From: a virus
DNA length: 20,650 bases
IMG/VR virus record: IMGVR_UViG_3300043436_001582
Span: 1-20,650 of that record
Reading direction: 5' to 3' (one strand)
This document shows positions 4,619 to 20,650 of the stretch, piece by piece. How positions within the stretch are numbered: position 1 is the first letter of the stretch; each line of letters starts with the position of its first letter. The position numbers were made by a program, and so were the translations under genes. Below the pieces are notes generated by a model that saw only the letters and a list, made by a program, of their open reading frames with translations, was not told where the DNA came from and made no database searches.

Positions 4619-6310
4619 TTAATTATCTTCGTCTGGGTTTCTACGTTGAGCAAATCGCCCACCGTAAGCCCGTGATACCAGTTTGTTTATGAGTTCCCCT
4701 TCCATTGGAGCAGCAGCACCAATGCCGGGGAGTAGTCCGGAACCATCGTCCGTACTAGATACATTACCATCTCCAGAAGGTGCTGGCTGAGCATTACCAT
4801 CTGGTCCGGCGAACATGCCTGTAGCCAACATAATGGCTTGTTGAATCTGGGCACGCATCATGTCCAGCGCACCTTGGTCAATGGCGTCGTCTTGAAGTTC
4901 TTCAAATATTTCAGCCAACTTCTCACGTGGGAATTCTTCACCAAGAAGACGCAGTGCGCCCTCCTTAGACTCAAGTCCCAAATTCATCTTGGCTTGTACT
5001 TCGTTAAGTTTGATAAGAACATCAACAGGAAGTGGTTCAGGCCAGTGAACAGTTGTTTTATAGATAAGAGGGTCAGCAGGGTCCAACTGGTCAAGTTGGT
5101 CTTTTTCTGGTAGTTCAGCACGGCTAGGGTCCCACGTAAGCATTTGTGGTTCAAAGATTGCGGCAGTACGAATAATGATTTCGTTAATGCGCTCTAGACC
5201 CTTGGTGAAGTGGATTTTCTTCATCGTAAAGCGGTTCATCATTGGCTGGTATTGGATAGCCAATGCCACACCAGAGGTGTTAGATACAGGTTGGAATTGT
5301 CCAAGTGCTGACTCAGGAACACCAGTAATTTCGTGCATAGTGCGTTTAATGACATTGATGTATTCCAGAGCACCTGACATCTCACCACGAGATTCAAGGT
5401 TGAACACGCTGGCATCCTTTGGAAGACCAGCCCAAACCTTCTTCGGTCCACGCTCTAACTGGGAAGCCTTGGCGCCAGTGATAATTGTCACAGGGGCAGC
5501 GTGGTAGTTGATGATGTCAGAAACTTCCAACATCTTTTCGTTCAACTCACGATTCAAAGGAATGATGTCCCAGATGTCTGACTGTCCCCAAGGAGAAGAA
5601 GAGATAGTCGTATTTGGAATATGCACAATTGGAATAGTTCCAATTGCATTTGGGTATTCGTCAATCAATTCGTCATTAACAAATTGTTGCACCATGTCAT
5701 CAGAGATGATTTCCGTAAATGTGTAAACCTGACGAGTACCTTCAGGAGAAGTGCCCCAGAAACGATACTTTAACTTAAAGCGAATCAAACGGTCACGGTC
5801 ATGAGGGTGGTATTCAGGGAAACAGTGAGCAGGGTTCAATGGAATAACACGAATACGACCTGAATGAAAAATACCAATACTGTCGGTATAAGGTTCTTCG
5901 TAAGCAACTTTTACAAAGCAGTCACCCGTAACAGATGCAAGTTGTCCCATTTCCCAAAGAACATAATGCTTATTGTTGTGGTTATCCCAAACTTCATGTA
6001 AAAGTTGAGGAATGATTGCTTCGTTTTGTTCTGGAACGTGGAATTGAATACCTTTACCAAAACAGAAGTTGGTGATGTAGTCCGACATAGTACGGACATA
6101 ATTCATGTAGAACTGGGATTCACCCATCTCACGGCGATAAGACCAGTGGTGTCCAAGGTACCAAGCCCAAGCCGCTGAGTAGCGGTTAAGACGAGGACCA
6201 TGTACTTCAAACTCTTCGTCTGCAAGTTCCACCAAACCAAGTGGGGAAATAGCAACGGTGAGGTCGCTTGACGACGCTCTATAAGATGGGGACCAAAAAT
6301 CAACTGCCAT
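4619..6310 (-). CDS. Portal protein (563 aa)
   Basis: Portal proteins form the dodecameric ring through which DNA enters and leaves the head. The central part has the typical portal pattern: I-P-I-V-H-I-P-N near residue 230, then S-P-W-G-Q-S-D-I, I-P-L-N-R-E-L-N-E-K-M and V-S-D-I-I-N-Y-H-A-A-P, followed by G-V-P-E-S-A-L-G-Q near 345 and S-G-V-A-L-A-I-Q-Y-Q-P-M. This corresponds to the stem and crown-adjacent helices. The C-terminal 80 residues are acidic, Gly/Pro-rich and probably flexible. The start is an ATG preceded by AAGGTG. Length is within the usual 450-600 range. The next genes downstream encode scaffold and capsid proteins, which supports the call. Confidence 0.9.
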   Translation of the reverse strand: MAVDFWSPSYRASSSDLTVAISPLGLVELADEEFEVHGPRLNRYSAAWAWYLGHHWSYRREMGESQFYMNYVRTMSDYITNFCFGKGIQFHVPEQNEAIIPQLLHEVWDNHNNKHYVLWEMGQLASVTGDCFVKVAYEEPYTDSIGIFHSGRIRVIPLNPAHCFPEYHPHDRDRLIRFKLKYRFWGTSPEGTRQVYTFTEIISDDMVQQFVNDELIDEYPNAIGTIPIVHIPNTTISSSPWGQSDIWDIIPLNRELNEKMLEVSDIINYHAAPVTIITGAKASQLERGPKKVWAGLPKDASVFNLESRGEMSGALEYINVIKRTMHEITGVPESALGQFQPVSNTSGVALAIQYQPMMNRFTMKKIHFTKGLERINEIIIRTAAIFEPQMLTWDPSRAELPEKDQLDQLDPADPLIYKTTVHWPEPLPVDVLIKLNEVQAKMNLGLESKEGALRLLGEEFPREKLAEIFEELQDDAIDQGALDMMRAQIQQAIMLATGMFAGPDGNAQPAPSGDGNVSSTDDGSGLLPGIGAAAPMEGELINKLVSRAYGGRFAQRRNPDEDN

Positions 6311-9666: not shown

Positions 9667-11223
9667 CTACCTGAAAAACGGATTATCAGCCACCATAATC
9701 TGAGGCATGGTGTCTTGAACCGTCATATGGCAGGCAATAGCCAATGAGTCTGGGTAGTCGTCAAAGGCTCCTTTTTCATCAGGAGCAGCCGCCAACATGT
9801 ACGGACCTTTGTATACTTTTTCAAGGTCAGCCATTTGTTGGTTAAAACGCTTCCATACTCTGTTACGGCGAGCCTTAGAGTGTCCGGGAATAATCAACTG
9901 TTCACGCTGGATTAGTTCAGTTAGGTGAACCCAGCGTTCATGCTGTGCTTTGGAGTCTGATGAAATCGCAAGAACTTCCATATCGGGCAAAAGAACTTGA
10001 AGTCTTTCTGCCACGGCACCACCGACACCTTGAGCGTCTACACCAATGCGGAGTACGTCATAGTTGCGGATAAAGTCAATAATCTGGAAATACTGAGATT
10101 CCCATTCTTCGTTGTTAATCTCAAGCCAGTTAAGGATGCGGTGTTCATAAAAACCAAAAGGGTCCGGATGGTCCCAATCAACCCAAACGGCTGTGGCTAC
10201 AGTTGAGTCATTAGCACGAGCGACGTCAATCCCAATAACAACGGGGGTACGCCACCATTGTTTAACAAGACCCATAGAAGGGTCGTACATGCGTTCCATG
10301 CGCTCTTCGGTAACAAACATACCTTTTTCAAGAACCCATTTATTGCAATAAGACATTTGAAATTCATCTGAGTCTTCCCCAATTCTTAGTTTTTCTTTAG
10401 AAATGAACTTAGCGTAGTTAGCATTGTACTTAGCGGCTGTTCGCCAATCGTACTCAAAGTGGCAATGCCGTCTGTTTCTACCATTAACCATTCGCCTTTT
10501 ATTGAATTGAATGGCTTTGTAGAAGTAACACTTATTACGGGTAGCCGTACCTGTCAAACAAATAGAGCCGTTGTTGAACGCCAACATGGGCTTGATTGAT
10601 TTGGTAATCATAAACTCGTCGGCTTCCTGAGCCTCGTCAATAAGAACGAAGTGGTAAGTTTTAGACTCAATCTTTGCCTTGGGGTTACAAGTCTGCATAC
10701 GACATAGTGAGCCAGAGTGCTTCAAAGTAATAATGCGACCCTTACCACGTGTACCACCTGATGTTGCTTTGTCATCAATCTCGGGGTCAAGTAGGAACTC
10801 AAGTGCGTGGTCACTTGTAAGTTTAGAAACAATACGACTAAACACGGTGTCGGCTTGGTCTTCGGTAGGTGCAAAAACACCAATCCAAAATCCCTTTTCA
10901 AACTTCTCAAGCCATGTTGGGTACACTTTTGCCAACTTGGGCAAGATAACCATCATTGCGGCACAGACATTGGAAAGCACTTCAGACTTACCTGACTGGC
11001 GAGTAGCCACAACTGTCATCTCTTCACCGTCACCTAAAACGATGGATTCAATTATGCGGTAAGCAATAGGAACCTGATAGGGAAACAACTCTACGTCACA
11101 GAATTCTTCTGTAAAAACAATTAGTCTTTTTACAAGATTGTCTAAGAATTCAGCAGAGGTTTCATCTAACTCCTCTACGACTTCCTCGTCTATCATTTCA
11201 TTTTGTTGTTCTTCTGTTATCAC
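9667..11223 (-). CDS. terL: Terminase large subunit (518 aa)
   Basis: This is the ATPase/nuclease motor that cuts and packages phage DNA through the portal. The ATPase part shows Walker A T-R-Q-S-G-K-S-E (residues 74-81), Walker B V-L-I-D-E-A (193-198) and a coupling motif L-T-G-T-A-T (223-228). The RNase H-like nuclease part shows G-I-D-V-A (D333), G-V-D-A-Q-G (D396) and a final acidic cluster D-D-Y-P-D-S near 488-493. Length is typical. The N-terminal 25 residues are very acidic. The start is uncertain: GTG at 11223 and ATG at 11196 are both in frame and neither has a clear Shine-Dalgarno, which is odd for an essential gene. Two hairpins lie immediately upstream. No small subunit is evident directly beside it. 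Confidence 0.93.
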   Translation of the reverse strand: MITEEQQNEMIDEEVVEELDETSAEFLDNLVKRLIVFTEEFCDVELFPYQVPIAYRIIESIVLGDGEEMTVVATRQSGKSEVLSNVCAAMMVILPKLAKVYPTWLEKFEKGFWIGVFAPTEDQADTVFSRIVSKLTSDHALEFLLDPEIDDKATSGGTRGKGRIITLKHSGSLCRMQTCNPKAKIESKTYHFVLIDEAQEADEFMITKSIKPMLAFNNGSICLTGTATRNKCYFYKAIQFNKRRMVNGRNRRHCHFEYDWRTAAKYNANYAKFISKEKLRIGEDSDEFQMSYCNKWVLEKGMFVTEERMERMYDPSMGLVKQWWRTPVVIGIDVARANDSTVATAVWVDWDHPDPFGFYEHRILNWLEINNEEWESQYFQIIDFIRNYDVLRIGVDAQGVGGAVAERLQVLLPDMEVLAISSDSKAQHERWVHLTELIQREQLIIPGHSKARRNRVWKRFNQQMADLEKVYKGPYMLAAAPDEKGAFDDYPDSLAIACHMTVQDTMPQIMVADNPFFR

Positions 11224-11246
11224 GTAACCATGATACTAGAGAAAAT

Positions 11247-11290
11247 GGCAGGTACTCAAGAGGAATGTTGGAAAAACTTGAGTACCTGCC
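11247..11290 (-). repeat. Perfect 14-bp inverted repeat (hairpin 1) upstream of the terminase
   Basis: Arms 11247-11260 and 11277-11290 are perfectly complementary (GGCAGGTACTCAAG) around a 16-base loop. In the minus-strand RNA the stem is followed by AUUUUCUCU, a weak U-rich tract, so partial termination is possible. It ends 23 bases before the terminase start, leaving no room for a new promoter after it. RNA processing, a translation-control leader or a packaging recognition site are alternatives. Confidence 0.7.
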
Positions 11291-11292
11291 AA

Positions 11293-11329
11293 GCCAAGCC
11301 TAGTGGAAAGGAGGAAACACTAGGCTGGC
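11293..11329 (-). repeat. Second hairpin with anti-Shine-Dalgarno-like loop
   Basis: Arms 11297-11305 and 11318-11326 (AGCCTAGTG and CACTAGGCT) pair perfectly, extended by GCC/GGC across one bulged base at 11296. The 12-base loop at 11306-11317 reads UUUCCUCCUUUC in minus-strand RNA. This contains CCUCCUUUC, the same as the 3' tail of bacterial 16S rRNA. The plus-strand version, GAAAGGAGG, is a full Shine-Dalgarno. It lies two bases from hairpin 1, in the gap before the terminase. Confidence 0.6.
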
Positions 11330-11333
11330 AAAC

Positions 11334-11561
11334 CTATTTAGTAACTTCTCTATTAGATAGTTCTTCCCACATAAGGGTTAAGGCTTCAATGTATTCATTG
11401 ATAAGTTCTGATGAACCACCACGAAAACGCCAATCATCATACGCTCTATGGAAGTTCATAAGAGAAGTATCCATCCATAAGATGATTTCATCATTAGCCA
11501 TTCGTTGGATACGCTGAGGCACAATCTTAGTTGTTGTTTTTTCTTTTGTCCAAAAAGCCAT
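11334..11561 (-). CDS. Small protein upstream of the terminase (75 aa), unknown
   Basis: The product begins M-A-F-W-T-K-E-K-T-T-T-K and is mainly helical, with R-I-Q-R-M-A-N-D-E-I-I-L-W near residue 17, F-H-R-A-Y-D-D-W-R-F-R near 37, and an acidic helix E-Y-I-E-A-L-T-L-M-W-E-E-L. It lacks cysteines and membrane segments. Its ATG overlaps the stop of the membrane-protein gene (TAATG), so it is translationally coupled to it. A small helical protein directly before the large terminase could be a small terminase subunit, but it is shorter than usual and no DNA-binding motif is clear. Function otherwise unknown. Confidence 0.65.
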   Translation of the reverse strand: MAFWTKEKTTTKIVPQRIQRMANDEIILWMDTSLMNFHRAYDDWRFRGGSSELINEYIEALTLMWEELSNREVTK

Positions 11562-12458: not shown

Positions 12459-12472
12459 TAAAGTATTCTAGC

Positions 12473-14559: not shown

Positions 14560-15618
14560 CTAGTTTAACGTATACCAGCCATCTTCCCACAAAGTGAGAA
14601 GACGCTTGAAGTACCGTTCATACATTTTGCCTACTGTGGCAAGACCATAACGATTTTTTGAATAATTACTAATATCCTCACGGCTGAGATATTTGGCATC
14701 CTCAGCCGCATCTACGAATTCTTGTAGTGTATGGCAACGGTACCCCGTGACCTTGTCAATTACAGTTTCTGTAAAGGCACCCCAGTCGGTGGAAATAACA
14801 GGGGTGCCACAAGCCATAGCCTCAATAGCAACTGTGCCAAAAGGCTCCACATAGATTGTGGGGGTAAATACAGCAATTGCGCCACCCATCAATTTGGCCC
14901 GCTCTTCAGTGCCGACTACACCAACGTACTCACCATACTCAGGTGGTACACCCTGTCCAGCGACCACCAAACGCTTCCCAAGGTGCTTACAAACATCCAC
15001 TGCTATTTGATAGCCCTTGCGTTCAATGAGACGTCCTATGTAGAGATAATAGTCATCAGGTGTTTCTTGAAAGGGAAAATCATCTACGTCAATGTAACTA
15101 GGGATTACGGTGTCGTAGAACTTGCCGTCAAGAGCGTGGGGGTCTGTGACTTTTGACCCATAACAGGAGTGCATCCATGCGTAGGACTCAAACACTTTAA
15201 ACGGTGCAAATGAGCCACCGTATCCAATACCAAACTCCACGCTTAATTCATTTGGGAAAGCATCAGCGATTGGTTTAGACGCATATCCAGTAATAAGGCA
15301 GATAAAGTCTTTGTGCTCTAAGCGTTCTTGAATACCAGCAATTACGTTGTTGTTGAAGTTAACCCAGTGAGGTAGGGTCCAATCAAATGAAGCCGCTGAA
15401 TAATGGTTATTACCTACAGCCTTTAAACGGTCTTCTTCTGTAATGCACATAATGTGTTCGTCACAAGGCGCTTCGTTGAACTCACCGCCGTATAGAAAGA
15501 CCGTGTGACCAAGGTCTTTCATCATGATACAAAACTTGCGAACCTTTTCTGTATAGGCGCAAGCCGTAAAGTCTTCAGTAGTATTAGTATGTGGAAGACT
15601 AACTACGTGGAATCTCAT
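14560..15618 (-). CDS. Glycosyltransferase, GT-B fold, GT4-type (352 aa)
   Basis: This enzyme probably transfers a sugar from a nucleotide sugar to a protein, DNA or glycan; the acceptor is not visible. The C-terminal domain has [10 protein letters not shown] at residues 193-202 and the E-x7-E motif E-P-F-G-T-V-A-I-E (E258 and E266) followed by [10 protein letters not shown]. These are donor-binding elements of GT4 retaining enzymes. The N-terminal half is a less conserved Rossmann-like acceptor domain, with a [10 protein letters not shown] strand near 35. It overlaps the unknown 361-residue gene by 20 bases and precedes the OB-fold gene by four. Lying inside a fibre module, it may glycosylate virion proteins (inference). 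Confidence 0.88.

Positions 15619-17906: not shown

Positions 17907-17907
<1 letters not shown>
16693..17907 (-). CDS. Glycine-rich tail fibre/adhesin with FN3-like domain and Cys-rich insert (404 aa)
   Basis: Residues about 17-110 form an FN3-like domain (V-T-N-F-N-Q-N-Q-A-T-F, then L-S-N-G-T-L-Y-Y-V-R-C-R-A-V). From about 143 to 395 the protein is polyglycine, ending V-T-F-K-Y-F-G-P. Residues 257-313 interrupt the glycine region with 15 cysteines in pentapeptide C-N-P-Y/F-x units and tetrapeptide C-Y-x-T units. The remaining cysteines are few. It is a paralogue of the protein at 178-1410, sharing N-F-N-Q-N and L-S-N-G-T-L-Y-Y; that copy has no such insert. The ATG overlaps the stop of the collagen-like gene (TAATG), so they are coupled. 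Likely a fibre tip or adhesin; disulphide or metal crosslinking of the insert is inference. Confidence 0.8.
16969..17139 (-). repeat. Cysteine-rich repeat insert (15 Cys in 57 residues)
   Basis: This encodes residues 257-313 of the glycine-rich fibre. The first part has C-N-P-Y/F plus one residue, three times. A C-x-C-x-C-C cluster and a second C-C follow, then C-Y-Q-T-C-Y-Q-T-C-Y-S-T-C-Y. In DNA a 12-base unit (AACAGGTTTGAT on the plus strand) occurs twice in direct tandem at 16995-17018, and GGGTTACAG recurs at 17103-17140. Both suggest growth by slippage or unequal recombination. Confidence 0.85.

Positions 17908-20650
<2,743 letters not shown>

Follow-up and report, generated by a model that had tools for sequence, protein, structure and literature searches.

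A tandem-hairpin RNA with an anti-Shine-Dalgarno-like loop: a candidate small non-coding RNA of phages

Two hairpins upstream of the terminase gene

The window analysed here is the whole of a 20,650-base IMG/VR record, a virus genome fragment in which the terminase, portal and capsid genes all lie on the minus strand. Its terminase large subunit gene (9667..11223, minus strand, GTG start), assigned by a PHROG match, encodes a protein with 47-48% identity to those of Streptomyces phages BRock and LuckySocke. Closer terminase relatives occur on hundreds of IMG/VR contigs, and these relatives point to a freshwater actinobacterium as the host. Upstream lies a small gene (11334..11561, minus strand; 75 aa) that has no PHROG match. 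The window also encodes an 810-aa collagen-repeat protein (17907-20339; Pfam Collagen, E 4e-51) and, among the late genes, a group 1 glycosyltransferase (14560-15618).

The 110-base gap between the terminase gene and the small gene (11224-11333) contains two hairpins in tandem. The first-pass annotation had described them correctly except for the H1 stem, which is perfect, as it had said, but 15 bp long rather than 14 bp. In transcribed order H2 comes first (11293..11329, minus strand), with a 12-bp stem, one bulge and the all-pyrimidine, anti-Shine-Dalgarno-like loop UUUCCUCCUUUC (11306..11317, minus strand); the fold, compensatory changes in relatives and a manual tally all define this hairpin. 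H1 follows after one base (11246..11291, minus strand) and carries a 16-nt loop. The minus-strand fold reaches -45.6 kcal/mol, compared with -16.7 +/- 2.7 in dinucleotide shuffles, none of which (0 of 200) folded as well (z -10.6), while the plus-strand fold of a wider region has a z of -5.9. One copy of the sequence CCTCCTTTC is present in the window, where 0.13 would be expected, and no DNA-level match to the hairpin locus was found in public phages.

Beyond H1, the transcribed strand reads through the U-rich tail UUUUCUCUAG (11236..11245, minus strand), a candidate termination site, to the -10 box TATCAT (11230..11235, minus strand), six bases and the terminase GTG. H1 probably forms the terminator of the RNA, and with it the 3′ end; a consensus terminator scan of the window, with a scanner loop limit of 8 nt, called no terminator there. 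The terminase GTG lacks a Shine-Dalgarno sequence, as had been reported (pairing of the leader with the 16S tail scores -2.7 kcal/mol), but the proposed tie between this absence and the hairpins gives way to a better explanation, a conserved leaderless promoter. Of the 99 distinct upstream regions of relatives, 78 have TAnnnT 5-8 nt ahead of the start codon of the terminase, mostly as TATNAT-6-GTG and with hairpins present or not, so the hairpins are not needed to account for the missing Shine-Dalgarno. Another sequence with the look of a leaderless promoter lies at 12459-12470 of the window: TAGAAT, six bases ahead of the ATG that starts the 11964-12458 gene (KTSC domain).

The start of the hairpin RNA is less clearly marked in the window than elsewhere. 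A -10-like TAGGTT (11331..11336, minus strand) sits just before the RNA and overlaps the stop codon of the upstream gene; because it is weak, the window RNA may be cut from a longer upstream transcript. Much better candidate promoters are found at the same position in L010, L014, L040, L052 and L116, with TTGACA and an extended -10 preceding the hairpins in L040, L052 and L116, and the candidates are also good at the replication-initiator slot described below.

Conservation, covariation and a second genomic location

Tandem hairpins with pyrimidine loops precede the terminase gene in about 12 lineages: the window, L001-L004, L010/L011, L014, L040, L052, the L116-L124 group and L208, and more loosely L049, L051 and L054. 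Covariation in related phages, the check that the first-pass annotation had named, came out in favour of the element, since both hairpins are kept through compensatory stem changes while the loop stays constant. In the window group, 8 of 27 pairs have changed on both sides among only five sequences (5 of 15 in H1), 95% of cells are paired, and none of 500 shuffles reached the covariation score. The H2 loop is invariant in L001-L003 and L014 as the stems around it change. In the relatives, over flanks of up to 8 kb, the clean hairpins with CUCC-type loops are concentrated in the terminase slot. Many relatives have nothing in the terminase gap, and many are without any such RNA, although most of the records are fragments; in L198, L203 and L206 the gap holds an ordinary T-tailed hairpin. 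RNA genes do occur in this slot, because two relatives, L235 (2698-2926) and L251 (2720-2949), carry tRNA-Gln, tRNA-Leu and tRNA-Lys there.

With only the window group as input, a covariance model picks up the terminase slot of the divergent L010, L040, L116 group and L052 (E 6e-7 to 6.5e-5). It also matches G025:37888-37991 (E 0.0099) and G053:2105-2210 (E 0.056), two genomes without a terminase copy of the RNA. These E-values alone are modest, and the matches are convincing through synteny and covariation: the two loci are syntenic, and in both the RNA sits between two opposite-strand genes, divergent from an O-like replication initiator. Nine distinct sequences from this initiator locus keep the loop CCCCUUUCU, with CCCCUUUC constant, while the stem varies among CCCTG/CAGGG, CTCTG/CAGGG, TTCCG/CGGAA and ATCTG/CAGAT and the -10 hexamer among TAACAT, TACGCT and TACTAT. 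Stem pairs in this slot were counted by hand, as the MAFFT alignment A6 puts one arm off by a base. Weak model matches in G028 and G067 were judged to be chance.

The initiator slot of G019, G022 and their relatives shows a third arrangement, a larger branched RNA behind TGnTACACT with the hairpin loop CUUUCCCUCCUUUCU. It keeps CCUCCUUUC, and its stems covary (GCGGGGG, GCAAGGG, GCAGGGG and GCGCAGGT, with their complements); this RNA may be either homologous or convergent. The RNAs of L376-L392 have, besides the loop, a second invariant stretch, ACCTCCTCAGG, in the branched part. Across 19 distinct hairpins from the three arrangements, 126 of 128 stem pairs are standard, CCUUUC is present in 18 loops (L010 is without it), and three to five pair types occur at every one of the six pair positions nearest the loop. 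A structure with covarying stems and a constant loop is thus found in at least two genomic positions. G014, which has the terminase copy, has no RNA at its initiator slot, which suggests one copy of the RNA per phage, in alternative places.

Other structured sequences were seen as well. In L394, L395 and L373 (G030), a conserved promoter, GATACACT, upstream of the replication initiator is followed by hairpins without CUCC loops, which are possibly the same RNA gene with a different loop specificity. At 5652-5713, L320 (G004) has an inverted repeat of 22 bp that resembles parS-like sites and has ATGTTCCACGTGGAACAT within its arms.

A 16S-like loop and what it may do

The resemblance of the loop to the anti-Shine-Dalgarno, which the first-pass annotation had pointed out, holds for many Actinobacteria. 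The 16S tail GGATCACCTCCTTTCTAAGGAG, containing CCUCCUUUC, was confirmed in Streptomyces, Microbacterium, Rhodococcus, Mycobacterium and other Actinobacteria, and also outside the phylum. The window H2 loop is identical to the actinobacterial 16S 3′ tail (ACCUCCUUUCU) over 9 nt, and the loops share up to 11 nt with it, a length reached in L384. All 19 H2 loops are C/U-rich. The H1 loop varies among lineages; it is CUCC-rich in most of them but not in the window, where it matches the 16S tail over only 4 nt. The match to 16S rRNA is less striking than its length suggests, because an all-pyrimidine loop fits an all-pyrimidine motif more readily than a random sequence would. Furthermore, across one megabase, tandem hairpins with pyrimidine loops are no more frequent overall than those with purine loops, so the signal rests on conservation and position and not on raw counts. 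Exact matches to the 16-mer TGTTTCCTCCTTTCCA in viral contigs were left uncounted, since on the other strand this sequence also picks out ordinary Shine-Dalgarno sites.

Other viruses also carry what look like real hairpins with the identical loop TTTCCTCCTTTC. They lie between late genes (L084, 2588), upstream of a large ORF at the contig start (L086, 82), just downstream of a tRNA-like gene (L097, 309, minus strand), before an 18-bp terminator-like hairpin (L089, 7918, minus strand) and, with a long stem, at an ORF start (L105, 1462).

Our preferred reading, which we rate at about even, is that the hairpins form a phage small non-coding RNA of ~90 nt that pairs with Shine-Dalgarno sequences through its 16S-tail-like loop. 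The conserved unit is the loop sequence together with pairing, and not the sequence of the stem, which argues that the RNA displays its loop for base pairing; the displayed loop is the 16S tail sequence, and its natural partners would therefore be Shine-Dalgarno sequences. From sequence we infer how such an RNA would start and end, bind Shine-Dalgarno sequences, find its targets and benefit the phage. The 5′ hairpin would expose a pyrimidine loop with the sequence of the anti-Shine-Dalgarno tail of actinobacterial 16S rRNA; transcription probably ends at the 3′ hairpin, which often has a second, CUCC-rich loop. The 5′ loop would pair with GAAAGGAGG-type Shine-Dalgarno sequences in host or phage mRNAs, competing with 30S subunits for messages led by them, and the adjacent leaderless terminase message would escape this masking. 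The best predicted loop duplex in the window is with the major capsid leader (-11.1 kcal/mol, the 16S tail itself scoring -9.5), and the predicted score with the terminase leader is -1.1 kcal/mol. Counting against the reading are the weak -10 of the window, the L010 loop without CCUUUC, the variable H1 loop, the hairpins with other loops in the initiator slot of L394, L395 and G030, and the relatives, many in number, in which no such RNA is seen. A broader version makes this a mobile small-RNA gene of freshwater actinophages and a general decoy that, during infection, hides Shine-Dalgarno sequences and shifts translation towards leaderless phage messages such as that of the terminase; as a whole, it seems to us unlikely.

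We doubt that the hairpins do no more than end transcription and insulate the leaderless terminase promoter from the late operon upstream of it, H1 serving as the terminator and H2 as protection for the 3′ end. The window itself would suit such an arrangement, as a strong H1 runs into UUUUCUCU, which immediately precedes the terminase -10, and so would the T-tailed hairpins that occupy the same place in L198, L203 and L206. However, a terminator does not need a constant loop amid stem turnover, L010 and L052 are among several relatives that lack a U-tract after H1, and the initiator-slot element is antisense to both neighbouring genes and stands behind its own putative promoter. That the RNA is found elsewhere in other lineages, with opposite neighbours, divergent from the initiator and behind a conserved -10, argues against a plain terminator, a terminase leader and a packaging signal alike.

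The small RNA might instead bind a protein, with its pyrimidine loops acting as a decoy for Rho, S1 or a cold-shock protein, for example, and not for Shine-Dalgarno sequences. Pyrimidine loops with few purines have the composition that such proteins favour, and the loops here, of 9-17 nt, contain few purines or none. We consider this improbable. The order of C and U is maintained (the CCUUUC of nearly all loops, CCUCCUUUC in many) and, across three different arrangements of the RNA, it is that of the 16S 3′ tail, which favours base pairing. A role within a long late transcript, as an RNase processing site or as an mRNA stabiliser, would be consistent with the weak window promoter before H2 and with the co-directional neighbours of the terminase-slot element, but the putative promoters that directly precede the hairpins of other lineages and the antisense position of the element in G025 and G053 make it very improbable. 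A cos or pac signal, suggested by the adjoining terminase gene, is scarcely credible, given that such hairpins are absent from this place in most of the distinct relatives whose terminases are 82-90% identical, that the same element lies at the replication locus, and that the compensatory changes obey RNA pairing, G-U included.

Among the functions that had been offered at the outset, a structured small RNA able to bind purine-rich leaders has therefore gained from covariation, loop conservation and the second, antisense location, and DNA packaging has lost. What the family offers is a candidate defined by sequence and supported by covariation, with a mechanism that can be tested: a phage RNA that would copy the ribosome's mRNA-recognition tail in a host group that mixes leaderless and Shine-Dalgarno-led translation. 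If this is true, it would be a phage takeover strategy that acts on a class of mRNA.

Comparison with known RNAs

No Rfam family matches the hairpin RNA, and literature searches found no paper describing it. One close likeness is to the 6C/B11 sRNA of Actinobacteria, which is also small and also has two hairpins with C-rich loops. The C-rich loops of B11 bind G-rich mRNA leaders and act redundantly on a 5′ UTR (PMC10470900). The phage RNA shares the two hairpins with C-rich loops, but its loops are of the CCUCCUUUC type instead of six C's, it is encoded by a phage, and the Rfam 6C model gave no match at E up to 10 for the window or 0.5 for relatives, with the gathering score not reached. In Caulobacter, the alpha-R8 sibling sRNAs (SisA-D) carry UUUCCUCCCU, which has been described as a signature of the anti-Shine-Dalgarno kind, and act as repressors of many targets (PMC12559287). 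Their motif lies in a single-stranded part of the RNA, in an alphaproteobacterium with Hfq, whereas that of the actinophage lies in a hairpin loop. Staphylococcal C-rich (UCCC) sRNAs such as RNAIII, RsaA and IsrR are reported to pair with Shine-Dalgarno sites through a C-rich loop or sequence (e.g. PMC3961350), and they have no sequence homology to the phage RNA and are not phage-encoded RNAs of such a kind. Repression of Shine-Dalgarno-led or G-rich leaders is thus a reported mode of action for 6C/B11 (PMC10470900), for alpha-R8 (PMC12559287) and for the staphylococcal C-rich sRNAs.

Phages also encode RNAs that invite comparison. The c4 antisense RNA of phages P1 and P7 acts, probably from its loops, on a ribosome-binding site (PMC12197685), but c4 is specific for the ant leader, whereas the present loop copies the generic anti-Shine-Dalgarno tail. 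Mycobacteriophages D29 and L5 make an abundant, toxic non-coding RNA whose mechanism is unexplained (PMC5712189) and which is, like our candidate, an actinophage non-coding RNA; the transcribed strand of the D29 Pleft RNA has no CCUCC loop. WC1 nc_2 was rejected as a counterpart, having only a short GCCCUUUC hairpin. The working principle is known from bacterial sRNAs, and a phage family built on a copy of the 16S tail and placed at no fewer than two genomic sites appears to be new.
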